DNA of 42,734 nucleotides, from NCBI GenBank assembly GCA_030692375.1, contig JAUYCD010000086.1, forward strand, positions 1-42,734, in the 5' to 3' direction. The translations under genes were made by a program, and so were the position numbers. This document shows positions 10,692 to 36,164 of this stretch, in pieces. The notes beneath the pieces were generated by a model. The model worked only from the letters and a program-made list of their open reading frames with translations, did no database searches and was not told the origin of the DNA. Numbering within the stretch: the first letter of the stretch is position 1; each line of letters starts with the position of its first letter. Origin of the DNA: Candidatus Latescibacter sp. (GTDB lineage Bacteria > Latescibacterota > Latescibacteria > Latescibacterales > Latescibacteraceae).

Positions 10692-10724
10692 TATGTATAG
10701 TTTGCTCTGTTCAAGTTCCGGGCA

Positions 10725-13912: not shown

Positions 13913-14304
13913 CAGGGGAGAAGAGCCGCCACTCTGTTTCGCAAAATGTCGAAATCCACCGGTTTTTTTAAAAAATCCTCAACCGGCAGCCATTTTTCAT
14001 CGATATCGCTGGTGCTGAATCCAAACGGGAATTTCGAATTGACCCCTGTCAACATGAGAATGGGAATCTGTTTGAATGTTTCCTCAAAATGTTTCATTTT
14101 ACGGGCAAGAGTAAAACCGGCTGAACTGTTTTCCGGAAACATAACATCAAGTATCACAAGATCGGGCTGTCTTTTTTTCATACTTTTTTCAGCGCCGGGA
14201 ATATCCGATTCCACCCGTACTTCATACCCTGCATGCTCAAGAACCGTTGCAGTAGCGCTGGCGAAATCTTCATCGTCATCAATGATCATAACATAAAACA
14301 TCAT
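13900..14304 (-). CDS. Single-domain response regulator (receiver)
   Basis: This 134-residue receiver domain has no output domain. The acidic pocket is D9-D10-D11, the phosphoacceptor is D53 (VILDVMF), the switch Thr is T86 (MLTG) and the conserved Lys is in FLKKP (~113). The start at 14304 has AAGGAGA upstream. A longer in-frame extension has no ribosome site and would read back into the kinase gene. It overlaps the kinase 3' end by 26 bp, so the two form a pair. Its last codons fall in the 62-bp segment shared with nqrA, so its 3' end abuts the decayed fragment. It probably acts by protein-protein contact. Confidence 0.85.
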   Translation of the reverse strand: MMFYVMIIDDDEDFASATATVLEHAGYEVRVESDIPGAEKSMKKRQPDLVILDVMFPENSSAGFTLARKMKHFEETFKQIPILMLTGVNSKFPFGFSTSDIDEKWLPVEDFLKKPVDFDILRNRVAALLPCQKY

Positions 14305-15742
14305 CGTTCTCCTTTTCTTTTTCAGTTGCCTGTGGTACGGAACCCGGAAACCTGATCTCAAATCGAGTTCCTGCATTCGGTGAACTGGCAACCCGTATTG
14401 ACAAATTATGAGATTGAGCAATATGTTTGACAATAGTAAGGCCGAGACCGGTGGAATTTTTGTTATGTCTAACCGCCTCGACAGTATGGTAGTATTCATT
14501 AAAGATTTTTTCGAGTTTATTGGGCTCTATGCCGATACCATGATCCTCTACGACTACCAGGGGTCCGGAATCCGGAAAGGAAAGACACTCTATGCGTACA
14601 GTATTATTATTATGTGAATATGTTACAGCATTTGATATCACATTAAGCAAAAGCATCTTCATGTGATCTTCATTGGTCACTACGCAAGCGGATTGCAGAT
14701 TTTTTTCAAACCTGATATTCCGTTCTTCCGCTGATGGCTGAAGCTGGGCGAGGCACCAGGTAATAATTTCCACCAAATCGATTGATTCCCACCGAAGGGT
14801 TTCTTTGCGGACATCGCGAAGATTTGTCAGTTGCAGCATCTCCTGAATTTCTATACCGAGCTTCCGGCTCCGCGCAGAAATCCGCTCAAGAACATCGAGG
14901 GTCTTGTCGGGCAAAACCCCGCAATGTCCTTTTTGAATGAGTTGTATATTGGCATCGATGGCAGCCAATGGCGCTTTCAGTTCATGAGTCAGCCATAACA
15001 GGTGTTTTGCTCTCTCCTCCTGTGTTTTCTTTAACTGCAGATTAGTCTCAATAAGTTCGCAATCACGCTTTCGTACAAGATCAGACAGGTGTGATACAAG
15101 GTACCAGAGAATAAAAAAAATGGCTAACGTCGAAGATACCGGCATGATAACATTCATGGGGCCCGGTACGACGAAAGAGCGAAAAACGGTTTCTCCGTAG
15201 ACACTGACAGGGGAAATAAGCCCGGCAGTTTCCAAAGCAACGCAGAGAATGAACAAAAGCGAGGCAAATAAAAAAACTAAAAAACTTTGGATTCGGCTAA
15301 AGAAAATACAGGCCAGCACTATGTGAAAAAGATAGGCAAATGATACGGCTGTATCAAGGCTCCCCGCATAATGAACGACTATGGTCAGAATGACCAGATC
15401 AAAGAATATCTGAGACCACATATTGATATGTATGCTTCGTTCATTCCCGGTCTTTGGAATACTGCGCGCATGATGCAGGATCAGGATATTCATAATAGCG
15501 AGAAGCCCTGCAATCACAAACGGCCAATGAAGGTTTGAGCGAAGGTATAATTTTTCGAGAATCCCCGGAAAAGCGCTGAATATCCCGAACAGAATCAGAA
15601 CAGCAATCACTACCCAGCGGAGGAGGCAAAAAAGAAATATATTCTCTACACTCAGAGAGCTGAAAAATATATTATTTTTAGTACCTGCATCATGTGCCGT
15701 AGCAGGCTGCGCAGTTGAAAAATCGAGAGTATATTCATGCAT
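14279..15742 (-). CDS. Membrane sensor histidine kinase
   Basis: This 487-residue protein has about six hydrophobic segments between residues 35 and 220 and no large periplasmic domain, so it probably senses a membrane-borne or intramembrane signal. The phosphorylated His is H253 in LTHELKAPLAAI (HisKA). The HATPase follows with N box NVISNAVTYS, G1 DHGIGIEPNKL, F-type IFNEYYH and G2 STGLGLTIV. It overlaps the receiver gene downstream. The pair lies directly upstream of the CODH/ACS genes on the same strand, but a decayed fragment and a promoter-like gap separate them, so control of acs genes is only a guess. Confidence 0.9.
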   Translation of the reverse strand: MHEYTLDFSTAQPATAHDAGTKNNIFFSSLSVENIFLFCLLRWVVIAVLILFGIFSAFPGILEKLYLRSNLHWPFVIAGLLAIMNILILHHARSIPKTGNERSIHINMWSQIFFDLVILTIVVHYAGSLDTAVSFAYLFHIVLACIFFSRIQSFLVFLFASLLFILCVALETAGLISPVSVYGETVFRSFVVPGPMNVIMPVSSTLAIFFILWYLVSHLSDLVRKRDCELIETNLQLKKTQEERAKHLLWLTHELKAPLAAIDANIQLIQKGHCGVLPDKTLDVLERISARSRKLGIEIQEMLQLTNLRDVRKETLRWESIDLVEIITWCLAQLQPSAEERNIRFEKNLQSACVVTNEDHMKMLLLNVISNAVTYSHNNNTVRIECLSFPDSGPLVVVEDHGIGIEPNKLEKIFNEYYHTVEAVRHNKNSTGLGLTIVKHIAQSHNLSIRVASSPNAGTRFEIRFPGSVPQATEKEKENDDVLCYDH

Positions 15743-15781
15743 ATAAACCGAACGATCCTCGGTATCTATGACCGAAATGAA

Positions 15782-15850
15782 ACTCCCCGCCGCAAGCAGC
15801 GGGGTATCTTGTTAGGTTTATTCTTTTCAAACGCCGCAAGCGGCGGGGAA
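15782..15850. repeat. Paired CCGC-rich hairpins (MITE-like)
   Basis: CCCCGCCGCAAGCAGCGGGG at the left and GCCGCAAGCGGCGGGG at the right form inverted arms around an AT-rich middle. It sits just upstream of the histidine kinase start and could hold its promoter region or end the upstream transcript. Confidence 0.6.
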
Positions 15851-15872
15851 TTTAACCCATAGAGATTAAACA

Positions 15873-15930
15873 GAAACGGTTTCATCGTTCCCGCGAAGCG
15901 GCAACAAGTTCGGCATGACGTCATCCAGAA
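15873..15930. repeat. REP-like repeat copy, half palindrome
   Basis: It matches 10614-10660 almost base for base (GAAACGGTTTCATCG through CAAGTTCGGCATGAC) and then diverges, so only one arm of the palindrome remains. Confidence 0.7.
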
Positions 15931-15995
15931 CTCGCTACAGTATCTATTTTGTATTCCATGCGCAATTTATTAAGACGTTATGTTACCTTGAAACT

Positions 15996-16622
15996 CTATT
16001 TCTTTAACGTAAGACTGCCGCTCTGCAGCCGGGGTAAAAAAGCTTCTTCATAAAGCGCTATTACTTTTTTAACCGCAAAACAAGTGCATTCCGAAGAAAT
16101 TGTGGCGCCGCTGATAGCCCGGATATCTTTTCTGAGCGCTATCGGATCACTGCTTCCTTTTCCGGTGAATTGATCCAAAAAGTTATTACGGGCAATCGGA
16201 CGGCCGCGTTTCTCCTGATAAGCCATTACCGCCATATTCTGAACCTTTGCGGGAGTGGGGGTTAATCTGATAATAAAATCGACTGGCCCCCATTTTCCAG
16301 GCTGTGCATCAATGACCGCGACACCGACTTGTTTGTTGTTTTTGACACCTATGTAAAACGTAAAGTTTAAAGTTTCGCCGATTTTTCCCGATTCGGAGCC
16401 AGCCTGGAAATGCACGAGCTGACCGCCAAGCCGGCCCTTGATTTTAGCTGCTTCAGCGCTGGTCAGCGTGATAGTCTCCGTGGTTACTTGATCTACATCC
16501 GGAAAGACCTGCTTGAGCGCTTGTTCTTTGGTAAGCAGCACTACTGCCTGTGAAATACCGGTCAACCCAAGGAAAAACACAAAGAATACAGTAATAATGG
16601 CTGCTGTTTTTTTCATTTTCAT
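15996..16622 (-). CDS. Exported FMN-binding domain protein (predicted covalent flavin carrier)
   Basis: This 208-residue protein has an N-terminal signal peptide or anchor (residues ~5-28, ending SQAVVLL). Its FMN-binding domain, of the NqrC/RnfG family, has the attachment motif DIRAISGATISS, where ApbE-type transferases link FMN to the Thr. ATG 16622 has AAAGGAG upstream, and the longer in-frame extension lacks a ribosome site and would hide the signal. It lies 2 bp after apbE, so carrier and transferase are made together. It probably works in the periplasm as an electron carrier. The electron partners are not evident. Confidence 0.87.
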   Translation of the reverse strand: MKMKKTAAIITVFFVFFLGLTGISQAVVLLTKEQALKQVFPDVDQVTTETITLTSAEAAKIKGRLGGQLVHFQAGSESGKIGETLNFTFYIGVKNNKQVGVAVIDAQPGKWGPVDFIIRLTPTPAKVQNMAVMAYQEKRGRPIARNNFLDQFTGKGSSDPIALRKDIRAISGATISSECTCFAVKKVIALYEEAFLPRLQSGSLTLKK

Positions 16623-16624
16623 GA

Positions 16625-17620
16625 CTATCTCCTTTTTACCAGTTGAGTGTTTACTTGCATACCCGATGAATAAATTTTCCTGCCATCGGTAGTCACCATA
16701 AAAGTTCCCGTCGATTGCATGGCGTCGATAATGGGTATTCCCTTTTCCGCACCCAGCACAAACAGAGCTGTGGACCATCCGTCGGCAAGAACCGGATCGG
16801 GAGAGATTATTGTTACACTGGCCATGTCCTGAGAAGGGTATCCTGTTTGCGGATCAAGAATATGGTGATACCGTTTTCCATCTTTGATAAAATACCGTTC
16901 GTAGTCCCCGGATGTAACGACCGTCATGTCGGTCAAGTCCAATGATCCGATAACTCCATCCCCTCGTGGGTCTTTAATCCCGATTTTCCAAGGCCGCCCT
17001 TTGTAGGTACCCAGGGCATAAATATCTCCGCCGGCGTCAATGAGCGCTGAGGTAATTCCTTCCTGTCTCAATACCTTTACCGCCTCGCCAACGGCATATC
17101 CCTTCGCAATCGATCCGAGATCGATTTGCGAACGTGGATTGCTCTTGGTAAGGATGCCATTCTCGATTTTAAGGCTCTTGTATCCCACATCATTCAAAAG
17201 GCTGTCAATCGAGGATTGGAGAGGCACCGCCGGTTTATCGCTGAAAAACCCCCAGAGATTAACAACCGAGCAAATGGTGATATCGTATTTCCCGTCGGAC
17301 TTTTCGCTCACATCAAGGGCGATCCGGACCAAATCTACAATTTCTTTATCTGTTATGGGCTTATTGTTGGTATTGAAATCATACAGCGGACTTTTAGGAT
17401 TCAACATATTGAATTTGCTGTCGATTTCCTCTATCCTGTCCAAAGCCTTTGAAAGAGCGCTCAAGACCCTGGTGTCGCCCGGCGCCTTTATGGTACAGTA
17501 CGTATCCAAGAGATAGCGGGACTGGGATTGAAGAGTATCCGATTCGTGTGTCTTCCATCCCACCAGAAGGATCATAAGCCCAAACAATAAACCAAAAAGC
17601 ATTATTTTATATTTTTTCAT
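16625..17620 (-). CDS. apbE: FAD:protein FMN transferase
   Basis: This 331-residue protein transfers FMN from FAD to Thr in SGAT-type motifs outside the cytoplasm. A single hydrophobic segment (residues 7-22) is a signal anchor, with no lipobox Cys. Family motifs are IDLGSIAKGYAVGEAV, LIDAGGDIYALG, HHILDPQTGYPSQD and LADGWSTALFVLG. Possible clients in the window are the neighbouring FMN-binding protein, NqrB (T201) and the three NqrC domains at 32-35 kb. No other ApbE is seen here, so this one may serve both. Confidence 0.93.
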   Translation of the reverse strand: MKKYKIMLFGLLFGLMILLVGWKTHESDTLQSQSRYLLDTYCTIKAPGDTRVLSALSKALDRIEEIDSKFNMLNPKSPLYDFNTNNKPITDKEIVDLVRIALDVSEKSDGKYDITICSVVNLWGFFSDKPAVPLQSSIDSLLNDVGYKSLKIENGILTKSNPRSQIDLGSIAKGYAVGEAVKVLRQEGITSALIDAGGDIYALGTYKGRPWKIGIKDPRGDGVIGSLDLTDMTVVTSGDYERYFIKDGKRYHHILDPQTGYPSQDMASVTIISPDPVLADGWSTALFVLGAEKGIPIIDAMQSTGTFMVTTDGRKIYSSGMQVNTQLVKRR

Positions 17621-24043: not shown

Positions 24044-24604
24044 TTAAGACGATTCCTCAATGTGTATGACCCGTGTCGGGCAAAGATACGCACAGGCGCC
24101 GCATCCAATACAGGTTTCCGAGATTTTGTCAAAAGGTGTCTGGACTCTTCTCCTGATCCCTCTGTTGGAAAAACTTATCGCGCTCATCCCGACAACTTCT
24201 GCACACACGCGGACACATTGCCCGCACAGAATGCACTTGGACTGATCTTCATGATGAATTCGTACGTTTGTTACCCCGTATTCATCCGCCAGTTTATTTA
24301 TTTTATCGGAGTCGGAGCAGCGGGCCATCAGGAGTTCAATGATAATCTTTCGGGCCTGCACCACCCTTTCGGTATCGGTCTTGACTATCAAACCCTCAGT
24401 GACTTTATAGAGGCATGATACTTGAATGCCCGGCCGTGATCCGCCCACTATTTCAACCACACATAACCGGCATGCCCCGTAAGGCGTCAGATCTTTATGG
24501 TAGCATAACGTCGGTATGTGGATGCCCTCATCCCGAGCGACCTCAAGGATGGTTTTTCCTTCTTCAGCCTGTAGCACCTTATCATTTATCGTACACGTAA
24601 TCAT
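24044..24604 (-). CDS. HydA/NuoG/HoxU-type ferredoxin subunit lacking any catalytic domain
   Basis: This 186-residue cytoplasmic iron-sulfur protein has three predicted clusters. A plant-type [2Fe-2S] uses C34, C45, C48 and C64. Two ferredoxin-type [4Fe-4S] motifs use C124-C127-C130-C134 and C165-C168-C171-C175. This is the N-terminal electron-entry part of HydA or NuoG, but it stops before any H-cluster domain (no TSCCP or PCxxKxxE motif), so it is not a hydrogenase. ATG 24604 has AGGA about 9 nt upstream, and an alternative ATG at 24613 abuts that AGGA. It is the last gene of the Nqr-NuoEF block, split from it by a repeat. It could link the NuoEF-like module to ferredoxin or an unknown partner enzyme. 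Confidence 0.85.
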   Translation of the reverse strand: MITCTINDKVLQAEEGKTILEVARDEGIHIPTLCYHKDLTPYGACRLCVVEIVGGSRPGIQVSCLYKVTEGLIVKTDTERVVQARKIIIELLMARCSDSDKINKLADEYGVTNVRIHHEDQSKCILCGQCVRVCAEVVGMSAISFSNRGIRRRVQTPFDKISETCIGCGACAYLCPTRVIHIEESS

Positions 24605-24681
24605 ACAATGCATTCCTAATAGTTATAAATCGCTTATCTATTTGACTCAGCAAAGGTAAGAAATGGAGCAAATAAAGAACC

Positions 24682-24849: not shown

Positions 24850-25296
24850 CTACTTCGAAGAATCGAAATGAAAAACATCATCTCCTTTTTTATAATCGTA
24901 AATAAACCGGAGAGACGGATATCCGGCTATCAATGCCGCCATTGTCTCAAAAATATTTCCCAACGGTTTCATATCCGGATGGCTGAGAACAAAAACGGCG
25001 GTAATACAGGTGCCTTCCCCCTCTTTTGAATCAATCGTCAAGGTCCCGCCGGTTTGCTCAGCCGCCTGTTGAAGCAGTGAAAGCCCTAATCCGACTCTTT
25101 TCCCCGTTTTCGTAGTAAAGAAAGGATCCAGAGCCTTTCCCGCCGTTTCACTGTCCATACCCGATCCATCATCTCTTATGCAGACCCTCAACCGGTCTTC
25201 ATCCGGATATTCACCGATCTCGATGTGGACGGTTCTGGCATCAGCCCGTATTGCATTTTCAACAATATCAAGTATATGTAACGATATATCCTGCAT
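24850..25296 (-). CDS. Small HATPase-domain (GHKL) ATP-binding protein
   Basis: This 148-residue protein consists almost only of a GHKL ATPase domain: N box ILDIVENAIRADA, G1 RDDGSGMD, a TKTGKRVGLGLSLLQQA lid/G2 region and a final strand TITAVF-like. It has no His phosphorylation domain and no membrane segment. Proteins of this kind (anti-sigma or orphan kinase ATPase type) lie beside HydABC-type hydrogenase genes in many anaerobes together with DRTGG and PHP genes, as here. A role in signalling or maturation is inferred from that company only. Confidence 0.8.
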   Translation of the reverse strand: MQDISLHILDIVENAIRADARTVHIEIGEYPDEDRLRVCIRDDGSGMDSETAGKALDPFFTTKTGKRVGLGLSLLQQAAEQTGGTLTIDSKEGEGTCITAVFVLSHPDMKPLGNIFETMAALIAGYPSLRFIYDYKKGDDVFHFDSSK

Positions 25297-25325: not shown

Positions 25326-26027
25326 TCACAGCGCTGTTTTCAGCGCAGAAAAGGACAGTTCACGGGCAAAAACGGTCGTTGAAGTCTTGCCGATTTCCGT
25401 CAAATAATGGGCATCGGAAAAAGTAACGAGCGGATAGCCGAGGTTTTTGAACGAATCCTTTTTAAGAGCGTCGGCCCTCGGCGAGAGCTCAAGGGCATGG
25501 AGCGGCAAATGTTCCGGGATAAATCCAAGCTGTCCGAGAATACTGAACTGCTCACGGTCGATATGTGAGGCAACGGCGATTCCTCCATTATCCAGGATTG
25601 CCTGAACCGTTTCCTCCAATGATAGATTCGTTGCTCCGATCAGCAGCCTGCCTGAGGAGCCGACTATGCGGTCATATTCATCAACGATCAACTGTTCCCC
25701 AAACCTTGTTTCATCATTCTTTCCGGGCAGGTTCCGATACACCAGTTCCTGCATTCTGTGTAAAGCGCCGTCTTCTCCAAATAACGACAGGATGTGTACT
25801 TCTTCCCGGGTCGTTATCTCCATTCCACCCAGCACATGCACGCCGGCTCTTTCTCCGGCTCTTATTACCGCGGCGACATTTTCTGACGAGTTGTGGTCAC
25901 ATATTCCGATACAGTCCAGTCCGCGCTTCGCCGCTTCATCGATGATTGCAGTCGGCAGCATAGTGAGATCGGCGCAGGGAGAAAGGCAGGTATGTATGTG
26001 TAAATCGATCTTATATTTTTTCACCAT
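25326..26027 (-). CDS. PHP-domain metal-dependent phosphoesterase-like protein
   Basis: This 233-residue protein has the four PHP metal motifs in order: DLHIHTCLSPC (residues ~8-18), CDHNS (~43), GGMEIT (~66) and ASHID (~154), then a C-terminal SDAHYL (~201). The metal site looks complete, so phosphoesterase activity is plausible, but the substrate is unknown. Its start overlaps the end of the DRTGG gene by 17 bp. PHP genes of this type are regular neighbours of bifurcating [FeFe]-hydrogenase operons, where their job is still open. Confidence 0.82.
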   Translation of the reverse strand: MVKKYKIDLHIHTCLSPCADLTMLPTAIIDEAAKRGLDCIGICDHNSSENVAAVIRAGERAGVHVLGGMEITTREEVHILSLFGEDGALHRMQELVYRNLPGKNDETRFGEQLIVDEYDRIVGSSGRLLIGATNLSLEETVQAILDNGGIAVASHIDREQFSILGQLGFIPEHLPLHALELSPRADALKKDSFKNLGYPLVTFSDAHYLTEIGKTSTTVFARELSFSALKTAL

Positions 26028-26373
26028 CAGTTTGTGTGCTTGAGATCCCCAGAGCGTATAATCTACCGACCACCTCGAATGCGGGCATGCTGCTGACCAT
26101 GATCGGTATATGTTCTTCTTCCGCTTTACGGAGCGTATCTTCTTCCGGCACTCTCCCGTTTATCAGGATGATCCCGGATAATTCCTTCGTTCCGGCCACC
26201 GCTACGATATTCTGATGGATCTGCAGGGTTATCCAAATATTCCCTTCCCTGCTGTGGGCAAGGACATCGCTCAACAAATCGCTCACATAACCGCCGGTTA
26301 TCGCGGTATCCAGCCTGTCATCACCGGATTTCACTTCGAGATGCAATGAGTCGACTATTTCCTTCAGGTTCAT
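26011..26373 (-). CDS. DRTGG-domain protein (second copy)
   Basis: This 120-residue protein reads as a single DRTGG domain: a VTGGYVSDLLSDVLAHS-like segment (here ITGGYVSDLL), then WITLQIHQNIVAVAGTKELSGIILINGR and VSSMPAFEVVGRLYALGI. DRTGG domains are small, probably ligand-binding units seen beside CBS domains and in phosphotransacetylase. It starts 2 bp after the CBS-HATPase gene and overlaps the PHP gene. It is a paralogue of the protein at 27306-27680. Confidence 0.8.
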   Translation of the reverse strand: MNLKEIVDSLHLEVKSGDDRLDTAITGGYVSDLLSDVLAHSREGNIWITLQIHQNIVAVAGTKELSGIILINGRVPEEDTLRKAEEEHIPIMVSSMPAFEVVGRLYALGISSTQTDGEKI

Positions 26374-26375
26374 TT

Positions 26376-27305
26376 TTATTCCTTTTCAGAGTCAGGAGCA
26401 AAAAGTATTTCGAATTCCAGTTCAGTTCCTTTTCCGACATCGGACAGTATTTTCAATTCATCAGAACACTTTTTTATGTTATTTAAACCCATACCCGCAC
26501 CGAATCCCAATTCTCTCACCCACTCAGGAGCGGTTGAAAAACCGGGGAGCATTGCCTTCTCAATATCCTCGATCCCGGGGCCTCTATCCCGGGCATAGAT
26601 TTTTATTTTACTCGGATTAACCTCTGCAAAGATTTCTCCCTCATCCGCAAAAACGATCATATTCATTTCAGCTTCGTAAACGGCTATAGCCACTCTTCGA
26701 ACCACCTGGGAATGGAATCCGAGACGTTTCAGAGTCTTTTTCATATTGGTAGCGCAATCGCCTGCCTGTTGAAAATCTTTGCATTTAATCGTGTAATGGA
26801 AGTTCAAAGTTAGTTTTTCGGCAATGATATCTTCGAAGATATGACTCGCCCTGTAAGTATGAATGTCCTCATCCGAATACTTTGCTTCCATTTTCTTTAA
26901 AACACATCTGATAATATCGCCTTTTGTTACAATGCCGACCAGTTTGTGATTTTTGTCGATTACCGGGAAGCAGGTGAACCTGTAGCTCTCGAAATTTCTC
27001 AATGCTTCTACAAGCGGTGAATAGTCAAAGACAGTTTTCACCTTTCTTGACATTTTTTTTTCGATCAAGCAGTCTTCTTCCCTGTTAACCAGCCACTTGA
27101 TATAGTCTCCGATAGTGATGATACCTGCAATTTCCTCATTATCAATTACCGGTATACCGTAAATGCGCTTCGAAAGGAAAATATCTCCCAGAACACTCAT
27201 GTTCATGGTCGAATCGACGACGATAACATCCTTTGTCATCACTTCTTTGACTTTTATTTCGTAAATGAATTCCTGAATTTTCGAAATCTGTTTCGTATTT
27301 TCCAA
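26376..27305 (-). CDS. CBS-pair protein fused to a HATPase domain
   Basis: This 309-residue protein begins with two CBS domains (about residues 17-75, VKEVMTKDVIVVDSTMNMS, and 83-145, ending HKLVGIVTKGDIIRCVL), which usually bind adenine nucleotides. After a short linker comes an anti-sigma-type HATPase (about 170-305) with AVYEAEMNMIVFADEG, ARDRGPGIEDIEKAM and GFGAGMGLNNIKK. It may read the cell's energy state and pass it on by phosphorylation or binding. It sits between the two DRTGG genes with no gap, typical of regulatory cassettes beside HydABC operons. Confidence 0.85.
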   Translation of the reverse strand: MENTKQISKIQEFIYEIKVKEVMTKDVIVVDSTMNMSVLGDIFLSKRIYGIPVIDNEEIAGIITIGDYIKWLVNREEDCLIEKKMSRKVKTVFDYSPLVEALRNFESYRFTCFPVIDKNHKLVGIVTKGDIIRCVLKKMEAKYSDEDIHTYRASHIFEDIIAEKLTLNFHYTIKCKDFQQAGDCATNMKKTLKRLGFHSQVVRRVAIAVYEAEMNMIVFADEGEIFAEVNPSKIKIYARDRGPGIEDIEKAMLPGFSTAPEWVRELGFGAGMGLNNIKKCSDELKILSDVGKGTELEFEILFAPDSEKE

Positions 27306-27680
27306 TTACTGCTCCCTTGTCACTTTTTCACCGCAGGCCAGCCCCGCCAAAAATAACTTACCACAGGCTTCATACATATGATATCTGGTGCAAAGCAACG
27401 GAAGGTCCATTTTTCCCGCTATCGTTATTAACGAATTATCCGGTTTCTTCCCTCTCACAAAACAAATAGCCGATAGGTCAACAAGCTCCGCTGTCCGAAG
27501 TACCTGGAGATTTATCAATCCCGTCAATAGAAGAGCATGAACATCAGTATAAGCCAATACATCGCTCAGTAAATCCGATCCGCACACCGCTTTGATATCC
27601 ATATCTAAAATATCTTCACAACACAATACTTCCGCGTCCAATAATTCTTTAATATTGACGAGTTTCATGGTTGTGTCCAT
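27306..27680 (-). CDS. DRTGG-like protein (first copy)
   Basis: This 124-residue protein follows the same plan as the paralogue at 26011-26373: VCGSDLLSDVLAYTDVHALLLTGLINLQVLRTAELVD, then CFVRGKKPDNSLITIAGK and a final MYEACGKLFLAGL helix. The DRTGG signature itself is weak. It is directly followed by the CBS-HATPase gene and lies 75 bp after the NuoF-like gene. A ligand-sensing role is inferred from the family. Confidence 0.7.
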   Translation of the reverse strand: MDTTMKLVNIKELLDAEVLCCEDILDMDIKAVCGSDLLSDVLAYTDVHALLLTGLINLQVLRTAELVDLSAICFVRGKKPDNSLITIAGKMDLPLLCTRYHMYEACGKLFLAGLACGEKVTREQ

Positions 27681-27755: not shown

Positions 27756-29570
27756 TCACTCAACTATAACAGCTTCGAACTTGCACTTTTCAAAGCACAC
27801 ACCGCACTTTGTACACAAATCGGGATTGATCGTGTGCGGTTCTTTTTTCTCCCCGGAAATTGCGTTCTGCGGACAGTTCTTTGCACACACCGTACATCCA
27901 TTGCATTTTTCACGATCAATGCGATATGTTATCAATGCGGTGCATACCTTCGCAGGGCATTTCTTCTCCACTATGTGCGCCATATATTCATCTTTAAAAA
28001 ATCTCAACGTACTGAGCACGGGATTTGGCAATGTCTGTCCCAAGCCGCACATGGATGCATCTTTTATGACCGGACAGAGTTCTTCCATGAATTGAATATC
28101 GCTTTCTTCTCCCTTGCCGCTGCAGATTTTGTTCAAAATTCCAAGGAGAGCAGCCGATCCTTCACGGCATGTGGAACATTTTCCGCATGATTCGTCGGTG
28201 GTAAATGCGATAAAGTACTTTGCAATATCGACGATGCAGGTGTCTTCATCCATGACGACCATGCCGCCGGATCCCATGATCGCGCCAGCCTCTTTCAACC
28301 GTTCGTAATCGATGGGAAGATCGAGCAGTTCCGAGGGGATGAATCCTCCTGACGGGCCTCCGGTCTGCACAGCCTTGAGTTTCTTGTTGCCGGGGATACC
28401 GCCGCCGATATCGAAAACCATTTCTCTCAGGGTTATTCCCATGGGAACTTCAACCAGGCCGGCATTATTTATATTCCCCGCGAGAGAAAAGACTTTTGTC
28501 CCGCGACTTGTTTCGGTTCCGATTCCGGCAAACCATGTGGAACCCCAGTTTATGATCATCGGAATATTCGCCCAGGTTTCAACATTATTGATATTGGTCG
28601 GGAAACCCCAGAGACCTGATTGAGCCGGAAAGGGAGGTTTCAATCTCGGCTCGGGCGTCTTTCCTTCTATCGAAGCGATCAGCGATGTCTCTTCTCCGCA
28701 TACAAACGCCCCCGCCCCCTCAAAAATGGTGAGGTTAAAGCTGAAATCGGTATCGAAAATATTCTCGCCCAACAGGCCGTATTCCCGCACCTGCTTTATC
28801 GCTTTCTTAATCCTTTCTATCGCAAGCGGATACTCGATTCTCACATAGATATACCCCTCGCTGGCCCCCATCGCATATGCGCCTATACACATTCCCTCGA
28901 TAATAGCGTGAGGATCGGCCTCTACGATGCTCCGATCCATGAAAGCGCCCGGATCGCCTTCGTCGGCATTGCAAATAACATAACAGGGGGCTTCGGGCGA
29001 CTTCTCCCTTCTCTTCAGAACTTCCGCCCTGCATATGCTCCATTTCTCGCCCGTTGGAAACCCGGCGCCGCCTCGTCCCCGTAAGCCTGACTTTTTGATT
29101 TCCTCAATAACCTGATCAGGAGTCATGCTCGTCAGAACCTTTACCAGCGCCTTATATCCATCATTCGCGATATATTCATCGATATTTTCCGGATCTATCA
29201 GGCCGCGGTTTTTCAGTGCTATCAGCCGCTGGTCTTTGAAAAAAGGAATATCTCTTATTTTGGGAATCGGTGTTTCCTCGCCGGCAGGAACATACATTTT
29301 TGAAGTAACAGGTCTGCCTTTAAGAAAATGTTCCTCTACTAATTTGGGAATATCCTCCACTTTCAGAAACTGATAAAAAATTCCATCAGGCTGCACCATC
29401 AAAACGGGACCATTGACACAAAGTCCGCTCGCACCTGTCTGGACAATCTGAATATCATTATTCAGGCCCTGCCGCTGTATCTCATATTCAAGAGTATTCT
29501 TTATTTTTAACGCACCGTTGGATATGCAATTCGTACAGGTGCAGATCAACGCATTCGACCGATATGCCAT
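27756..29570 (-). CDS. NuoF/HydB/BfuB-type flavoprotein with extra iron-sulfur domains
   Basis: This 604-residue protein is the NADH-binding flavoprotein of the module. An N-terminal thioredoxin-fold [2Fe-2S] domain (residues 1-85, with C10, C12, C15 and the later GLCVNGP) precedes the NuoF core. The core has the FMN loop GLRGRGGAGFPTGEKW, NADEGDPGAFMDR and CGEETSLIASIEG, and the [4Fe-4S] motif ESCGKCSTCREG. The C-terminus (~550-604) adds two ferredoxin [4Fe-4S] sites (CNGCTVCAKNC and CTKCGVCFEKC). This extended form is typical of HydB/NfnL-unrelated 'Bfu' subunits of electron-bifurcating enzymes rather than of complex I. No complex I membrane genes occur here. It lies 91 bp downstream of the thioredoxin-fold [2Fe-2S] gene and within the Nqr block. 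Confidence 0.93.
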   Translation of the reverse strand: MAYRSNALICTCTNCISNGALKIKNTLEYEIQRQGLNNDIQIVQTGASGLCVNGPVLMVQPDGIFYQFLKVEDIPKLVEEHFLKGRPVTSKMYVPAGEETPIPKIRDIPFFKDQRLIALKNRGLIDPENIDEYIANDGYKALVKVLTSMTPDQVIEEIKKSGLRGRGGAGFPTGEKWSICRAEVLKRREKSPEAPCYVICNADEGDPGAFMDRSIVEADPHAIIEGMCIGAYAMGASEGYIYVRIEYPLAIERIKKAIKQVREYGLLGENIFDTDFSFNLTIFEGAGAFVCGEETSLIASIEGKTPEPRLKPPFPAQSGLWGFPTNINNVETWANIPMIINWGSTWFAGIGTETSRGTKVFSLAGNINNAGLVEVPMGITLREMVFDIGGGIPGNKKLKAVQTGGPSGGFIPSELLDLPIDYERLKEAGAIMGSGGMVVMDEDTCIVDIAKYFIAFTTDESCGKCSTCREGSAALLGILNKICSGKGEESDIQFMEELCPVIKDASMCGLGQTLPNPVLSTLRFFKDEYMAHIVEKKCPAKVCTALITYRIDREKCNGCTVCAKNCPQNAISGEKKEPHTINPDLCTKCGVCFEKCKFEAVIVE

Positions 29571-29661: not shown

Positions 29662-30045
29662 CTATAATACTCTTTCGCTCCCGATCGATAATGCGTATTC
29701 CTTGACTATCGACCCGCCAAGAACATGTTTTTCTAATATTTCACGGGCCTTTTCGGGCGTCACATCGACATATTTCACCGGCGGCTCGTTTTGTAATTCA
29801 ATCGTAATCATCGGCTCGCGGCTGCAAAATCCCGCGCAGCTCGAAATGGTCAGGATGATATCCTTCAGATCCCTTCGTTCAATCTCTTCCATAAGAGCAT
29901 TCATGACGGTTCTCGCTCCGGCCGCGATCCCGCATGTTCCCATGTGAACGATGACTTTCGCTTTACCAGAGCCTTCCCGCAGGTTTATTATTTTTTTCAT
30001 GCGCTGACTGATTTTTTCAAGATCTTCAGGCTTTAATTTGTTCAT
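29662..30045 (-). CDS. Thioredoxin-fold [2Fe-2S] ferredoxin-like protein
   Basis: This 127-residue soluble protein belongs to the stand-alone NuoE-like/thioredoxin-fold ferredoxins found next to HydB genes. Conserved parts are HMGTCGIAAGARTVMNA (C38) and ISSCAGFCSREPM (C70, C74). Only three Cys fall in cluster positions; the fourth position of the usual CxxxxC pair is Ala, so cluster binding may be atypical. ATG 30045 is chosen over an upstream in-frame ATG because it fits the domain start. It overlaps the NqrF-NuoE gene by 20 bp and so is coupled to it. Confidence 0.78.
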   Translation of the reverse strand: MNKLKPEDLEKISQRMKKIINLREGSGKAKVIVHMGTCGIAAGARTVMNALMEEIERRDLKDIILTISSCAGFCSREPMITIELQNEPPVKYVDVTPEKAREILEKHVLGGSIVKEYALSIGSERVL

Positions 30046-31003
30046 CTTTAACCCTATCTGATGGATAGTGATGTAAAACATCTATCACTTTGTGCTTATC
30101 CAGATATCCAAAAATATCATCGTTTATCGATATTACCGGCGATTGACCGCAGCACCCGATACAACTAACCGTATCAAGCGTATATTTTAAATCCGGTGTA
30201 TTCTGGTGGACCGATATACCCAGCTCTTTTTCAAGGGTATGGAGAAGGCCCGCGCCGCCTTTTACATAGCATGATGTTCCCAGGCAAACCTTGATGATAT
30301 TCCTGCCCCGGGGTTTCAGACTGAAAGCGTTGTAGAATGTTGAAACCCGATAGATAGTGCTGTATGGAATATTCATCTCTTTTGATACCATTGCCAGCGC
30401 ATATTCCGGCAAATAATTGAAAACTGTATGAATATTTTGAAGAATAGGAATAGTAGACCCGGGCATATCCCTGTGAGCTTCTATTATATTATATATTTTT
30501 TCTCTGTGATCGGTTTCAATTTTTATTTTTGGTTTCTTTTTTTCCTCACCGTACTGTAGATGTTCCATTCTGAATTTCCACTTCAGTTTCGGATTATACA
30601 GACGGTTTTTAACGATGTTTCTCACCGTTTCGACAAAGTCGGGCAGGGAAATTTCCATGTCATTTTTAACCTTGACCTGACATGCAAGCCTTATTCCTAC
30701 CTTTCTTTCTTCTGGAGTGATAAATCCTTTTTCTGTGGGGAGAATTTGACCTCCACCCTGTATAACTCTCACTTTGCAATAGCCGCAGCTTGCTTTTCCG
30801 CCGCATGCAGACGGAATATTAAAATTATGTGAAATAAGGGATGTGAGAAGCGTTTGACCGCCGCGAACGGTGAACTCATCTTCCCCGGCAACGCGAATCA
30901 GACATTCACCGTAATCGGCGAGCACGACATCGGCCAGAATGAGCAGGCCGCCCAGGAGGAGGCTGACACCGGTAAGAACGACGATAGGTACTATATACTC
31001 CAT
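30026..31003 (-). CDS. NqrF-type membrane [2Fe-2S] domain fused to a NuoE/HydC-type [2Fe-2S] subunit
   Basis: This 325-residue chimera has a membrane helix at residues 4-28. An NqrF-like plant-type ferredoxin follows with C67, C73, C76 and C108 (SACGGKASCGYC, RLACQVKV). In real NqrF, FAD/NADH-binding domains would come next; here a ~25-residue basic linker leads into a NuoE domain (about 165-315) with C240, C245, C281 and C285 (KVCLGTSC, CIGCCGQ). The protein thus replaces the NADH dehydrogenase half of NqrF with a socket for the NuoF-like protein encoded two genes on. It sits after nqrE exactly where nqrF belongs. The predicted electron path is NADH, NuoF FMN, NuoE [2Fe-2S], NqrF [2Fe-2S], then the NqrDE cluster. 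Confidence 0.92.
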   Translation of the reverse strand: MEYIVPIVVLTGVSLLLGGLLILADVVLADYGECLIRVAGEDEFTVRGGQTLLTSLISHNFNIPSACGGKASCGYCKVRVIQGGGQILPTEKGFITPEERKVGIRLACQVKVKNDMEISLPDFVETVRNIVKNRLYNPKLKWKFRMEHLQYGEEKKKPKIKIETDHREKIYNIIEAHRDMPGSTIPILQNIHTVFNYLPEYALAMVSKEMNIPYSTIYRVSTFYNAFSLKPRGRNIIKVCLGTSCYVKGGAGLLHTLEKELGISVHQNTPDLKYTLDTVSCIGCCGQSPVISINDDIFGYLDKHKVIDVLHHYPSDRVKDEQIKA

Positions 31004-31022: not shown

Positions 31023-31616
31023 TTAGAGATTGACTACTCCGGAAAAGCCCATGAATGCCAAGGCCATTATACCGGCAATGATCATGGTGATGCCGGGTCC
31101 CTGGAGACCTTTGGGGATGTCGGAAAACGCCATCTTCTGACGGATGCCGGCCATGGCCACAATGGCCAGGGTCCAGCCGATCCCGCTGCCCAATGCGTAA
31201 ACCAGCCCCTGGACAAAGGAATAGTTGCGGAGAGTCGCGATGAGAAGCACCCCGAGGATGGCGCAGTTCACTGTAATAAGGGGGAGGAAAACTCCCAGGG
31301 AAACGTAGAGTACGGGGGAATAACGGTCTATAAACAGCTCCACTATCTGCACAAACGCCGCGATAACCATGATATACACCAGGAACTGCAGGTAATCCAC
31401 GTGGAGGGGCACCAGAACCAGGAAATTGATAGGCCAGTTCAGCGCCATAGTCATGAACATCACGAAGATCACAGCAGCGCCCATGCCCAGGGCGGTAGGA
31501 ATCTCCGTGGACACGGCCACGAATGGACACAGCCCGAGAAAATTAGAGAGTATCATGTTCTGCGTAATGATGCTGGCAAAGAAAATAATGAATAGATTTG
31601 TGAAATCGATTCCCAT
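31023..31616 (-). CDS. nqrE: Na+-translocating NQR/Rnf core membrane subunit E
   Basis: This 197-residue protein has six membrane helices in the NqrE/RnfA pattern. It opens NLFIIFFASIITQNMILSNFLGLCPFVAVST. C30 and C118 (LITVNCAILG) occupy the conserved half-helix positions that, with the two Cys of NqrD, hold an intramembrane iron-sulfur centre in Vibrio NQR. ATG 31616 follows GAGGAATTAACT and comes 2 bp after nqrD; the longer open frame reads back into nqrD and is rejected. It is followed by the NqrF-NuoE fusion. Confidence 0.93.
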   Translation of the reverse strand: MGIDFTNLFIIFFASIITQNMILSNFLGLCPFVAVSTEIPTALGMGAAVIFVMFMTMALNWPINFLVLVPLHVDYLQFLVYIMVIAAFVQIVELFIDRYSPVLYVSLGVFLPLITVNCAILGVLLIATLRNYSFVQGLVYALGSGIGWTLAIVAMAGIRQKMAFSDIPKGLQGPGITMIIAGIMALAFMGFSGVVNL

Positions 31617-31618
31617 AG

Positions 31619-32224
31619 TTAATTCCTCTGGGTGAGAGTACGAAGGAGCCAGATGTAGAGCCCGAGCACGAAAAACGCCCCCGGCGCCATGACCATGATA
31701 ACCCAGGGCGTCCACCAGGAGCCGAGCACAGTTATGTCGAGAAAGGTCCCAAACCCCAGAAGCTCACGGATAACACCTATGACGAGTATGGAGAATGAAT
31801 ACCCGCAGGAAACCCCGAGGCCGTCGAAGAAGGACGGTATCACCGGATTTGAGATGGCGTAGGCTTCTGCGCGGCCCATCACGATGCAGTTGGTGATGAT
31901 CAGCCCCACATAAGGGCCGAGCGCGGCGGATATGGCCGGATAGTAAGCTTTCAGCGTCTGATCCACCACAATGGTGAATGTGGAGATGACCATCATGAAC
32001 ACCGCCATGCGGATACGGGACGGGATAATGGAGCGGATCATACTGATTATGGTTGAGGAGCAGGTGGTGACAAAAATTACCCCCAGGGCCATGGCGATGG
32101 AGTTCTTTACATTGTTGGTCACCGCCAGCGAAGAACAGATGCCCAGCATCATCGCGAACAGGGCATTATTCTTCCAGAACCCCTCAAAGAAAACCTTAAA
32201 TTCTCTGGATTGTCCTAAACCCAT
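31619..32224 (-). CDS. nqrD: Na+-translocating NQR/Rnf core membrane subunit D
   Basis: This 201-residue protein has six membrane helices. Family features are FKVFFEGFWKNNALFAMMLGICSSLAVT (C30), the second ligand C113 in GLIITNCIVMGRAEAYA, and PSFFDGLGVSCGYSFSI. It pairs with NqrE as the inverted-topology half of the ion-pumping core. It lies 12 bp after nqrC. Confidence 0.93.
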   Translation of the reverse strand: MGLGQSREFKVFFEGFWKNNALFAMMLGICSSLAVTNNVKNSIAMALGVIFVTTCSSTIISMIRSIIPSRIRMAVFMMVISTFTIVVDQTLKAYYPAISAALGPYVGLIITNCIVMGRAEAYAISNPVIPSFFDGLGVSCGYSFSILVIGVIRELLGFGTFLDITVLGSWWTPWVIMVMAPGAFFVLGLYIWLLRTLTQRN

Positions 32225-32236: not shown

Positions 32237-33928
32237 TTATTTTACAGCACTGAAGTAGGCGTTAAAACCGTTATTAAGTATTCGGACGACAGCTTCTGAA
32301 GTCACAGTTGCACCAGTCAAGGCGTCAAACTCGTTTGGCCCAGCTTTTCCGGTTTTTACAAGCGTAATGCCCTGCGCCACCTTTTTCCCGATGAACTGCT
32401 TCTGAAAGGCATCATCCATGATACGCTCACCGAACCCGGGAGTTTCTTTCTGGCTTACCACTTTGAATCCGCTGACCGTATCCCCTTTCAGCGCCGCCAC
32501 CACAGTGATGGTATCCTGATAACCTTTTCCGGAAAGACACAATGCCGCAGCGCCGCTCTCGTTGTCACGGTATATGAGTAATCCTTTTTCTTCCGTTTCC
32601 TTAATGCGCTCCCGGTAATTCTTCAGAATGGCGACGCTGTCCTGAGGGGCATAAGGTATCCCGAACACATCAAGGATTGACATGATGAGTTTGATTTCCC
32701 GGTTCTTTGAAATAACCGCCTCGCTTTTTACAGCATTCTGCCCGCTTTTCGGAGCGTTTTCCTCACTTTTGGAGGAGTTCGGTTCGTTTTTCGAAGCACC
32801 TTCCTCGCTCTTTGAGACTATCGGCTCGCTCTTTGAGGCGGTTTCCACGCTTTTGGCGGCAACCTGCTCGGTTTGGATGTTATAGTGCGCACGGAAACCA
32901 TTGTTAAGCATCCTTTCCAGCGCCTCTGAAGTCACTGTCGCGCGGCTTACAGCGTCAAACTCGGTTGGGCCTGCATGACCGGTTTTCACAAGTTTGATGC
33001 CATTGGATACTTTTTTCCCGATAAACTGATTCTGAAAGGTGTTGTCAGCGATCTGCGATCCCAGGCCGGATGTCTCATTCTGGCTCACCATCTTGAATCC
33101 GCTGATAGTATCGTTCTTAAGCCCCACTACCACGATTATGGTGCTCTGGTATCCGCTGCCGGCTAGAAGGATGGCAGCAGCGCCGCTCTTTTTCTCCAGG
33201 TATGTTTTTATTCCCTTTTCTTCCGATTCCGCGATAGTTTCCTTAAAGTTTTTGCGGATAGCGACACTATCTTGCAAACCATAATTCATCCCGAACATAT
33301 TGAGGACTGTCATCATGATTTTAACTTCCATGCCCTTTGGGATCTCCGGCACGGCTGCAGTATTGTAAAACGAAGAGAAACCAAGGTTGAGAATACGGGT
33401 GAGCGCCTTGGAAGTTTCGGTGGCCCCGGTGATGGCATCGAACTCACTCGGTCCGGAATGGCCGGTTTTAACCCACTTGATTCCTCCCGATACTTTTTTC
33501 CCGATAAATGAGTCCTGAAATGATTTTTCCATCATACGCGCCCCAAGTCCGGGGGTTTCATTCTGGCTGACCACTTTGAAACCGGAGATCGTTTCCCCAT
33601 TGAGCGCCACCACCACGGTGATGATGCTCTGGAATCCGCTGCCGCTGAGCGAGACAGCGGTTGCCCCGCTCTCTTTTTCTTTGAAGAGCCTGAGTCCCTT
33701 TTCCTCGGATTCGGTCACCCGGTTTTTATAGATGGAGATGATCTCCGCCGTGTTTTTCGGATTGTATTTTATCTGGAAGGCATCGAGAACAACGCCCTTC
33801 CTCTTTATTTCTTCATTCCTCTGAATGATGGGCAGGGTTTTGATATTGACCAGCGCCAGGAATCCTGAACAGATAATCGAAAGGATGAGGAGCATGCCCA
33901 TGATCCATTTCTTGCTGTTCATGTTCAT
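32237..33928 (-). CDS. nqrC: NqrC/RnfG-like subunit with three tandem FMN-binding domains
   Basis: This 563-residue protein is about twice the usual NqrC length (~260). One N-terminal membrane anchor (residues ~7-28) is followed by three FMN-binding repeats, each with SGFKxVSQxETxGxG, FIGKKV, LVKTG and an attachment motif. The motifs are DAITGAT (T170), DAVSRAT (T331) and DALTGAT (T541). The middle one has Arg (R329) in place of the conserved Gly, so its covalent flavin is in doubt. Repeats 2 and 3 are separated by ~50 extra residues of Lys/Ser/Glu low-complexity linker (KSE repeats). The start overlaps the nqrB stop (ATGA). Flavinylation would need ApbE, present at 16625-17620. The repeats seem to have arisen by internal duplication. 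Confidence 0.92.
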   Translation of the reverse strand: MNMNSKKWIMGMLLILSIICSGFLALVNIKTLPIIQRNEEIKRKGVVLDAFQIKYNPKNTAEIISIYKNRVTESEEKGLRLFKEKESGATAVSLSGSGFQSIITVVVALNGETISGFKVVSQNETPGLGARMMEKSFQDSFIGKKVSGGIKWVKTGHSGPSEFDAITGATETSKALTRILNLGFSSFYNTAAVPEIPKGMEVKIMMTVLNMFGMNYGLQDSVAIRKNFKETIAESEEKGIKTYLEKKSGAAAILLAGSGYQSTIIVVVGLKNDTISGFKMVSQNETSGLGSQIADNTFQNQFIGKKVSNGIKLVKTGHAGPTEFDAVSRATVTSEALERMLNNGFRAHYNIQTEQVAAKSVETASKSEPIVSKSEEGASKNEPNSSKSEENAPKSGQNAVKSEAVISKNREIKLIMSILDVFGIPYAPQDSVAILKNYRERIKETEEKGLLIYRDNESGAAALCLSGKGYQDTITVVAALKGDTVSGFKVVSQKETPGFGERIMDDAFQKQFIGKKVAQGITLVKTGKAGPNEFDALTGATVTSEAVVRILNNGFNAYFSAVK

Positions 33929-35007
33929 GATGAGACTCCCCTGCCGTATTTTACTGTCAGGACAACCTCGTCTATCAGCGCCGCGAATATATTCATAAAC
34001 AGGATGGCGAACATCACCCCTTCGGGGAAACCGGACAGGTTCCGGATGAATATGGTTACAGCTCCGATGGCCAGGCCATATATCCATTTACCGGCGTTGG
34101 TGAAAGGGCTGGTCACCGGATCGGTCACCATAAAGAAGGCGCCGAACAAAAGGCCGCCGGCGAAAAGGTGGAAAACCGGAGAGGCAAATTTCACCGGGTC
34201 GGCCAGGTGCATTATTTCCGCCATCGCCAAAGCCGAAACGATAGTGGCCAAAGGCAGCCTCCAGTTCGCCACCCTTGTCACAATCAGGAATATGCCGCAG
34301 AGAATGATCAGCGCGCCCGATGTCTCCCCCAGGCACCCGCCGGTGGAGCCGATAATGAGATCCTTCAGGGGAGTCAATACACCGCCCTTGAGATTTATAA
34401 GGGGTGTGGCGGAAGTAATCGCATCGCCCGATTTTGCCCAGTGGAGAAATCCGCCCCAGGCGCCGCCATAAGGCTCCACCCAGGAGGAGGACATCGGCCC
34501 GGGAAAGGTCGCCGCCAGGAATACCCGGCCGACAATGGCCGGATTGAAGATGTTTTTGCCTGTGCCGCCAAATACTTCCTTGCCCAGGATCAGCCCCACC
34601 GCCAGCCCCACCGCCGCCATCCAGAACGGGATGGTCGGGGGAAGGATCATGGGATAAAGGATGCAGGTGACAAACATTCCTTCGGTGACCTCCTCGTTCT
34701 TGGCCACCGCGAATCCCATCTCGATGAAGATGCCGACAATGTAGCAGAAAATGACCAGCGCAAGGCTCCTCCATCCGAAAAAGTAGATGGAGGCGAGCAC
34801 GGTCGGTGAAGCCGCCAGCATCACCGCGATCATATAGCGCTTTAGATCGGTGTTGTCGCGGATGTGAGGACCTTTGAGCGGGTTCACCGCACGGGGTGAG
34901 AAGAAAAAGGTGGACATGGTATCCCAGGCCGGATGCAGCCTGGATTTTTCGAACACCCGGTCTATCCTCTCGATAAGCTCCCGGAAGCGGCCGATTAATG
35001 TATTCAC
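33925..35007 (-). CDS. nqrB: Na+-translocating NQR/Rnf membrane subunit B
   Basis: This 360-residue protein starts at a GTG with GGAGG 6 nt upstream that overlaps the nqrA stop (GTGA); a longer open frame runs back into nqrA. It follows the NqrB/RnfD plan: N-terminal soluble stretch, then about ten helices with FVTCILYPMILPPTIPFW and GKEVFGGTGKNIFNPAIVGR. The probable covalent FMN site is T201 in SGDAITSATPL. In NQR this subunit carries FMN and riboflavin and takes part in Na+ transfer. The sodium specificity here is inferred, not shown. Confidence 0.93.
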   Translation of the reverse strand: MNTLIGRFRELIERIDRVFEKSRLHPAWDTMSTFFFSPRAVNPLKGPHIRDNTDLKRYMIAVMLAASPTVLASIYFFGWRSLALVIFCYIVGIFIEMGFAVAKNEEVTEGMFVTCILYPMILPPTIPFWMAAVGLAVGLILGKEVFGGTGKNIFNPAIVGRVFLAATFPGPMSSSWVEPYGGAWGGFLHWAKSGDAITSATPLINLKGGVLTPLKDLIIGSTGGCLGETSGALIILCGIFLIVTRVANWRLPLATIVSALAMAEIMHLADPVKFASPVFHLFAGGLLFGAFFMVTDPVTSPFTNAGKWIYGLAIGAVTIFIRNLSGFPEGVMFAILFMNIFAALIDEVVLTVKYGRGVSS

Positions 35008-36164
35008 TGCGCGCCTCCTTCCCGACGCTTTTTTACCGCATCCTGCACAGAGCTGGAAAGGCTGATTTTGGAGGGACACACATAATCGCACAACCGGCAG
35101 TCGATACAAAGCTGGGGCTTCAGCCGAAAACTCTGTTCGATCATTCCTGCTTTCACATGTTTCCATATCAGGTGCGGGTAGATTTTCACCGGACAGACCT
35201 CATCGCAGAAATTGCATTGCACGCAGGGCCGGACGCCGCCATGAATACTAGAATCCATTCGCTTGGGGAGAAGCGGCAGGTAATTTCGAAAGGTCAGCCG
35301 CGAGTAGCTGTCATAGGTAAAGCCGGGATTGAGGAAGCGGTAAAAATCCCGAACCGCATGTTCCCGGATAACCGTAATTTCACGGTCTGATATCTGCACG
35401 GAGTCGCTCTGGGGGACAACGCCGGTCAGCGCATCGCCCCTGATGATCCGCCAGGGGCCGTATTCCTCGGATTTCAGGAGATGTTTGCGGATGTCCTCAA
35501 AGCGGACGCCGATCCGGATACGGTACCACCCCGGTCTCGATACCCCGGGACCGGCCACGAGGATGATACGGTCTATGAGCGGTCGTCCCCTTGTCATGGA
35601 TTCGGAGGTCTGGAGTACATCGAGGAAGGGAATAACCAGAGTCGCTTCGTCCTCTTTCTCCACAGGCGCCTTGAGCAGGTCGCGGCGGAGGATCGCCGGG
35701 AACTCCTGCGGGTAGCGGTCGGACATGATGCGGACAGCGGCGAGTTCCCGCACTTCCGCAGTCTCAAACCAGCTTCGATTACGTTTATTTATGGCGATGA
35801 TTATCCGTGAGGAGGGAAAGAGTATATGAAGAGTTTTCAAACCATCGATAAATAATCCCCGGTCTTCAAAAATCTCCGGTTTCCAGGCCTGGTTCAGGAG
35901 GGAATTGTGCACTGCGCCGATAATAATGTTTTGTATCCGGTCGCAGTCTTCGAGAGTCTCAAAACGACCGGGGAAAAGCGCCGCACAGCCGGAGCTGTGG
36001 AAAAGCTCCAGCGCCTCTTTCCGCTCCAGGCGCCAGGGCACCCGCAGATGGCCCGGAAGCGGTTGGTAATCGTGCGAAATTGTTTCAGGAATGGGAAAAT
36101 CTCGTAAAACAGGTTCCGCCGCACCCTCAAAACTTTTAAAAATGTATCCGCCGGAAAAGGTCAT
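35004..36164 (-). CDS. nqrA: NqrA-like subunit with two RnfC-type [4Fe-4S] motifs and a shortened N-terminal domain
   Basis: This 386-residue protein matches NqrA through the middle (RKEALELFHSSG..ALFPGRF, GLFIDGLKTL, then the PLIDRIILVAGPGVSRPGWYRIRIG region). The C-terminus carries C314-C317-C320-C324 and C353-C356-C359-C363, two ferredoxin [4Fe-4S] sites as in RnfC and absent from Vibrio NqrA. The lipoyl-like N-terminal domain (HIGAPAxPxVKxGDxVxxGQ region) is not found; only ~40 residues precede the middle domain. No good ribosome site lies before ATG 36164. Codons ~9-29 fall in a 62-bp stretch repeated at 13851-13912. It may accept electrons from ferredoxin or dock the soluble module. It is the first gene of the Nqr block. 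Confidence 0.82.
   Translation of the reverse strand: MTFSGGYIFKSFEGAAEPVLRDFPIPETISHDYQPLPGHLRVPWRLERKEALELFHSSGCAALFPGRFETLEDCDRIQNIIIGAVHNSLLNQAWKPEIFEDRGLFIDGLKTLHILFPSSRIIIAINKRNRSWFETAEVRELAAVRIMSDRYPQEFPAILRRDLLKAPVEKEDEATLVIPFLDVLQTSESMTRGRPLIDRIILVAGPGVSRPGWYRIRIGVRFEDIRKHLLKSEEYGPWRIIRGDALTGVVPQSDSVQISDREITVIREHAVRDFYRFLNPGFTYDSYSRLTFRNYLPLLPKRMDSSIHGGVRPCVQCNFCDEVCPVKIYPHLIWKHVKAGMIEQSFRLKPQLCIDCRLCDYVCPSKISLSSSVQDAVKKRREGGAQ

Follow-up and report, generated by a model that had tools for sequence, protein, structure and literature searches.

The window, a 42,734-nucleotide stretch of Candidatus Latescibacter sp. DNA (contig JAUYCD010000086.1), contains an operon of fourteen co-directional genes spanning positions 36164-24044 (Table 1). 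The genes run in the order RnfC/NqrA-like, NqrB, NqrC, NqrD, NqrE, an NqrF-NuoE fusion, TRX protein, BfuB, DRTGG, CBS-HATPase, DRTGG, PHP, HATPase and BfuA stub, and no RnfB gene was found among them. The same order occurs in L006, L009 and L010, and L007 and L012 keep it apart from small losses; the L008 and L011 contigs are cut off, and in the spirochaete loci the TRX-BfuB pair has moved to another place in the order. The operon's regulator genes are also found with HydABC-type clusters that have no pump. Elsewhere in the window, on the minus strand, lie Wood-Ljungdahl genes named from sequence (CFeSP large subunit, acetyl-CoA synthase, CODH and CooC-like, 6443-13407) and a group comprising a response regulator, sensor kinase, FMN-binding protein and ApbE (13900-17620). 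Regulator/kinase pairs like the latter flank the pump operons in L012, L026, L029 and L167.

Table 1. Coordinates of the operon's genes and of the domains of the fusion protein within the window.
Feature	Position	Strand	Basis
RnfC/NqrA-like subunit, two 4Fe-4S ligand sets, FMN/NADH motif absent	35004..36164	-	
NqrB/RnfD-like membrane subunit; start codon probably the GTG at 35007	33925..35007	-	
NqrC/RnfG-like subunit, three FMN_bind domains	32237..33928	-	
NqrD/RnfE-like subunit, membrane [2Fe-2S] Cys conserved	31619..32224	-	
NqrE/RnfA-like subunit, membrane [2Fe-2S] Cys conserved	31023..31616	-	
NqrF-Fer2/NuoE(BfuC) fusion protein, 325 aa	30026..31003	-	ORF, Pfam, alignment
Membrane helix, residues 4-28	30920..30994	-	AF2 model; alignment to V. 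cholerae NqrF helix
Fer2 [2Fe-2S] domain, residues 40-113, ligands C67 C73 C76 C108	30665..30886	-	Pfam, alignments
Tail conserved after Fer2, then variable linker of low confidence, residues 125-165	30509..30631	-	alignment, AF2
NuoE/BfuC domain, residues 172-313, ligands C240 C245 C281 C285	30065..30490	-	Pfam, HydC match
Thioredoxin-like 2Fe-2S-family accessory protein	29662..30081	-	ORF from first start; probable start near 30045
BfuB/HydB (NuoF-like): N-terminal TRX domain, NADH/FMN 51K domain, 4Fe-4S, C-terminal 2x4Fe-4S	27756..29570	-	
DRTGG-type protein, first copy	27306..27680	-	name from sequence and operon type
CBS plus HATPase protein	26376..27305	-	Pfam, operon comparison
DRTGG-type protein, second copy	26011..26373	-	name from sequence and operon type
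PHP-type phosphoesterase	25326..26027	-	name from sequence and operon type
HATPase-type protein	24850..25296	-	name from sequence and operon type
BfuA stub (HydA/NuoG N-terminus): [2Fe-2S] and two 4Fe-4S ligand sets, H-cluster domain absent	24044..24613	-	

The first-pass annotation had described one open frame joining an NqrF-type membrane ferredoxin to a NuoE subunit, and we found that frame at exactly the coordinates it gave, running from 31003 down to 30026 on the minus strand, which it had left unstated; a plus-strand reading of the same interval was rejected, as it contains many stops. The eight ligand cysteines it named are all present among the ten of the protein (positions 34, 67, 73, 76, 108, 240, 245, 281, 284 and 285). 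The proposed N-terminal membrane helix is likewise borne out, with residues 5-124 matching V. cholerae NqrF residues 6-127, helix included (E 2e-20), and the gene starts 19 nt past nqrE, in the nqrF slot as claimed. A Pfam scan of the protein recovered Fer2 (E 7e-10) and 2Fe-2S_thioredx (E 4e-42) and no other domain: the FAD/NADH (FNR) domain of Na+-NQR NqrF is missing, with NuoE in its place, and the protein scores 112 bits against the nqrF model TIGR01941 (cut-off 295). Residues 167-314 have HydC of bifurcating hydrogenases as their best match (E 3e-37). AlphaFold2 modeled the helix and a NuoE fold (residues 164-315) confidently and the linker and Fer2 domain with low confidence, the alignment being shallow at Fer2. 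The low-confidence linker fits a mobile Fer2 domain, of the type reported for NqrF and RnfB in a 2025 RNF/NQR review (PMC12174285).

In-frame fusions are present in nine assemblies: that of the window, seven found by a genome-wide scan (L006-L012) and one found by a class search (G574). Their phyla include Latescibacterota (assigned by kinship), Omnitrophota and Planctomycetota (Phycisphaerae), and L006 and the genome of L009 fall in the same phylum group. When eight fusions are aligned, the ligands and a post-Fer2 tail (about NIVKNxxYDPKLRWxF) prove to be kept while the linker varies. On the spirochaete contigs L025, L026 and L029, the two halves are instead two genes occupying the fusion's slot; in L026 (7071-7520 and 7513-7983), and alike in L029, the gene for a 149-aa helix-plus-Fer2 protein with the same tail overlaps that for a 156-157-aa NuoE protein. 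These separate spirochaete genes are what would favor the spurious joining of two genes by misassembly or a frameshift error, a reading that is scarcely conceivable given in-frame fusions with the same tail and ligands in eight further assemblies, and we reject it on account of these independent fusions. Recurrence of the fusion with kept ligands and gene order is more than chance, and because the two halves are fused in some lineages and adjacent genes in others, which is classic evidence, they are likely to be functionally linked.

The BfuB protein encoded in the window resembles bifurcating HydB (E 1e-242) and keeps Cys ligands for all five clusters (B1-B5), as BfuC does for C1, with clusters assigned to individual Cys by homology. 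It also has the extra N- and C-terminal clusters by which bifurcating enzymes are separated from non-bifurcating ones (Schut et al., 2022; PMC9304861). At the B5 site of pump-linked BfuB, replacement of C47 by Ala is always paired with replacement of Gly12 by Cys, so that four Cys remain; loss of the B5 cluster was rejected for these proteins because every one with Ala47 has Cys12. The paired change, with Ala or Ser at position 47, also occurs in many HydB-type (HydABC) proteins without a pump. In two other loci (L007:11430-14528 and L195:6205-9363), BfuB has Fer4_20 plus Pyr_redox_2 (NfnL/GltD-like) in place of its C-terminal ferredoxin domain, and the BfuB proteins of L013, L014 and L078 are similar to this form in length, judged by length alone. 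That replacement, together with close relatives whose same pump runs with an FNR-type NADH domain, favors a version of the complex in which the Bfu module is a simple NADH dehydrogenase, with NADH as sole donor and no ferredoxin. However, known non-bifurcating homologues lack B2-B5 (PMC9304861), whereas here all are kept, B5 by the compensated swap, and we regard this version as rather unlikely.

The BfuA stub (189 aa) carries ligands for one [2Fe-2S] and two [4Fe-4S] clusters and then ends. Its best PDB match, chain A of 9mqx, belongs to an electron-bifurcating tungsten aldehyde oxidoreductase, and in Wor-Bfu (Type 2) enzymes the third substrate is handled by separate subunits (PMC9304861). 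Unlike HydABC of [FeFe] hydrogenases, BfuA here has no H-cluster domain, and none was found in 9 of the 11 operon-bearing genomes; G000 has one elsewhere, on C20. A split hydrogenase was rejected for the nine genomes without any H-cluster domain. The stub is nonetheless retained in every complete locus though its catalytic domain is missing, and we infer that its third-substrate partner is the pump. The locus shares with the Bfu family (HydABC, Wor-Bfu, Nfn-Bfu; PMC9304861) the BfuBC core ligands, a BfuA stub and hydrogenase-operon regulators, and differs in having BfuC fused to NqrF and, putatively, an NQR-type pump as partner. Bfu-type genes also stand in pump-less clusters, so the operon might encode two enzymes, with the fusion merely anchoring a soluble Bfu enzyme and Fer2 serving as its private ferredoxin. 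We consider this highly improbable: Fer2 is the only occupant of the nqrF slot in most such pumps, which would otherwise have no electron donor, and the operon offers the stub neither an H-cluster nor any other catalytic partner. A further BfuC fusion was observed in a same-family relative (L140:5134-6027), where an apparent HdrA-like N-terminus with a 4Fe-4S motif precedes NuoE and the gene adjoins those for BfuB and a 1047-aa BfuA.

The pump itself combines features of two known systems. With Na+-NQR (NqrABCDEF) it shares the NqrBCDE core, the NqrF helix plus Fer2 and an NqrB that resembles the NQR type: it has the EGFLVTG..LPP..PLW segment and the N-terminal extension, which it shares with NQR and not with RNF, and a pump tree rooted on RNF places the clade on the NQR side. 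The window NqrB passes the NCBIfam cut-off for rnfD but none of those for NqrB, and it has GI in place of the GG pair of the NQR quinone site that is present in most relatives. The two Cys per subunit of the NqrD/E (RnfE/A) membrane [2Fe-2S] cluster are present in every sequence aligned. NqrA has no redox cofactors, whereas the RnfC/NqrA-like subunit keeps both CxxCxxCxxxC (RnfC-type 4Fe-4S) sets, of which L010 lacks one Cys. These ligand sets and the homologous core are shared with RNF (RnfCDGEAB); unlike RNF, however, the operon has no RnfB, its NADH module is on the opposite (input) side, and in its RnfC-like subunit we found no GMGGAxFPT (FMN/NADH site) and no Complex1_51K match. The subunit also carries an insertion otherwise seen in NqrA. 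Derivation of NqrA from RnfC by such losses, after replacement of RnfB, has been proposed (Reyes-Prieto et al., 2014; PMC4014512), and in this clade NqrF is in place, the 4Fe-4S ligands are kept and the FMN/NADH site is gone. The subunit may be an RNF-to-NQR intermediate or secondarily mixed. Two peculiarities of the window proteins were also seen. About 70 N-terminal residues (the barrel-sandwich region) of the RnfC/NqrA-like protein are missing relative to relatives such as L138, through either a lineage-specific deletion or an assembly effect, and NqrC has three tandem FMN_bind domains (motifs DAITGAT, DAVSRAT and DALTGAT at 164, 325 and 535, the middle one degenerate), compared to one such domain in about 190 aa in relatives.

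Genes directly downstream of the operon point to a quinone in several genomes. L006, L009 and L010 have a MenA-like prenyltransferase and a polyprenyl diphosphate synthase there (with ApbE and an FMN-binding protein in L010), and L026 has MenG and MenA; the 42,734 nucleotides of the window itself contain no quinone gene. MenA-like proteins are encoded in 10 of the 11 operon-bearing genomes, the window's included, MenD scores above cut-off in only two of the 11, and MqnA/D had no matches in any of them. In genomes G000 and G064-G070 a MenA-like enzyme is present, MenD is below cut-off in most and MqnA/D is absent from all.

Comparison with same-family genomes indicates that the input module was swapped. 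Pump genes of G006-G008 are 57-80% identical to those of the window (72-80% for NqrD/E and 50% for the RnfC-like subunit), yet their NqrF is of the ordinary Fer2 + FAD + NAD type (360-374 aa, domains checked for L138), and on the contigs examined no NuoEF/Bfu genes lie beside it. It is because this orthologous pump has an ordinary FAD/NADH-type NqrF without a Bfu module that we read the input module as exchanged. In a tree of NqrB+D+E rooted on RNF, the window pump joins its same-family relatives with support 100, apart from the fusion and split pumps of other phyla, whereas in the BfuB tree the window BfuB groups with that of other fusions. These contrasting placements suggest that the pump was inherited with the family and that the NqrF-plus-Bfu block, found in the window's genome alone among 64 of the phylum group, was probably acquired by lateral exchange. 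A Fer2 tree, which bears on whole-gene replacement versus a tail swap, places the window with the fusions at a weak support of 68. Pump-linked BfuB falls in three places of its tree (the fusions, L010 and the spirochaetes; deep supports are low), which suggests repeated recruitment of the Bfu module to pumps, and in Omnitrophota, contig L009 has the fusion and an FNR-type NqrF as tandem genes. A third pump type was observed in L155, L161 and L168, whose nqrBCDEF clusters branch with NQR; next to these clusters no rnfC/nqrA gene was found, and rubrerythrin-like genes lie near two of the three.

The first-pass annotation had also argued that the fusion physically joins a donor module to the pump in a hybrid complex. 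On genomic grounds the idea holds, supported by the conserved fusion, the adjacent split genes of spirochaetes and the FNR-type NqrF in the same slot of same-family relatives, although both parts need redefinition: the donor module is a complete BfuBC core of the bifurcating type with a stub BfuA rather than plain NuoEF, and the pump, while related to NQR and RNF, is standard for neither, given its RnfC-like 4Fe-4S ligands and lack of RnfB. We think it fairly probable, from gene content and homology, that the operon encodes an ‘Nqr-Bfu’ hybrid membrane complex, an oxidoreductase that would pump Na+ while passing electrons from NADH, and probably also from ferredoxin, to quinone, with the fusion as its electron-input subunit. 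Counting against this reading are the RnfC-like 4Fe-4S clusters, for which a pure quinone reductase would have no use, as well as the GI for GG in NqrB, the sparse MenD matches, the absence of MqnA/D matches and the lack of a quinone gene in the window.

In the proposed Nqr-Bfu complex, a BfuABC module, HydABC-like minus its hydrogenase domain, would substitute for the FAD/NADH domain of NqrF. The BfuB FMN would oxidize NADH, and the BfuB C-terminal 4Fe-4S domain would most likely oxidize reduced ferredoxin. Electrons could leave for the Fer2 [2Fe-2S] cluster via the BfuB and BfuA clusters or, alternatively, directly from the BfuC cluster; the first route is favored because the stub is kept in every complete locus despite its lost catalytic domain. 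Tethered by helix and flexible linker between the membrane and the peripheral arm, Fer2 would swing to deliver electrons to the membrane [2Fe-2S] of NqrDE, from which they would pass to the NqrC and NqrB flavins and then to quinone, with export of Na+. By analogy with Nuo-Bfu, for which menaquinone is the proposed third substrate and NADH and ferredoxin are oxidized together (PMC9304861), the module would combine electrons at about -0.3 V with others at about -0.5 V and feed them to a pump whose endpoint is menaquinone (about -0.07 V), gaining more energy per electron than from NADH alone. The fullest form of this reading, a third membrane-bound Bfu-family type in which confurcation of electrons from NADH and from reduced ferredoxin to quinone drives an NQR-type Na+ pump and the fused Fer2 is the moving link, is one we hold tentatively, at slightly below even chances. 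The complex might also run in reverse, with quinol or the Na+ gradient driving NAD+ and ferredoxin reduction for the Wood-Ljungdahl pathway, whose CODH/acetyl-CoA synthase genes lie in the same window; RNF-type pumps are described as reversible (PMC12174285). Sequence gives no direction, however, and a separate complete RNF operon with RnfB (L141) in the same organism already couples ferredoxin, NADH and an ion gradient, making reverse operation distinctly unlikely. Because of this separate RNF, the hybrid pump is an addition to the organism's RNF, not a replacement.

Searches of open-access journal literature found no description of an NqrF-NuoE fusion or of an Nqr-linked Bfu enzyme, in line with the first-pass annotation, which knew of no such fusion. 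Schut et al. recognize two membrane-bound Bfu types only, Nuo-Bfu and Mbh-Bfu, with Nqr absent from the text and Rnf in the references only (PMC9304861), and the accessible part of the 2025 review treats FNR-type NqrF only (PMC12174285). In both known types, as here, the Bfu module replaces the NADH module of an ion pump, but theirs are the proton pumps of complex I and group 4 hydrogenases. Nqr-Bfu would join two known kinds, an NQR-type pump and a Bfu module, and the recurrence of the gene arrangement in several unrelated uncultured phyla points to a type of respiratory entry enzyme that has yet to be described. Should the complex form, the bifurcating family, whose membrane types have so far been predicted to pump protons only, would gain a Na+-pumping member, and NQR-type pumps would be shown to exchange their electron-input module as a whole. 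The RnfC-like subunit with cluster ligands and without the FMN/NADH motif supplies real sequences for a step postulated in the RNF-to-NQR hypothesis (PMC4014512), and if the confurcating-pump reading is true, the clade would, by virtue of this subunit, represent a stage between RNF and NQR that has survived. For energy-limited uncultured bacteria, joint use of ferredoxin and NADH at a quinone-linked Na+ pump is plausible.
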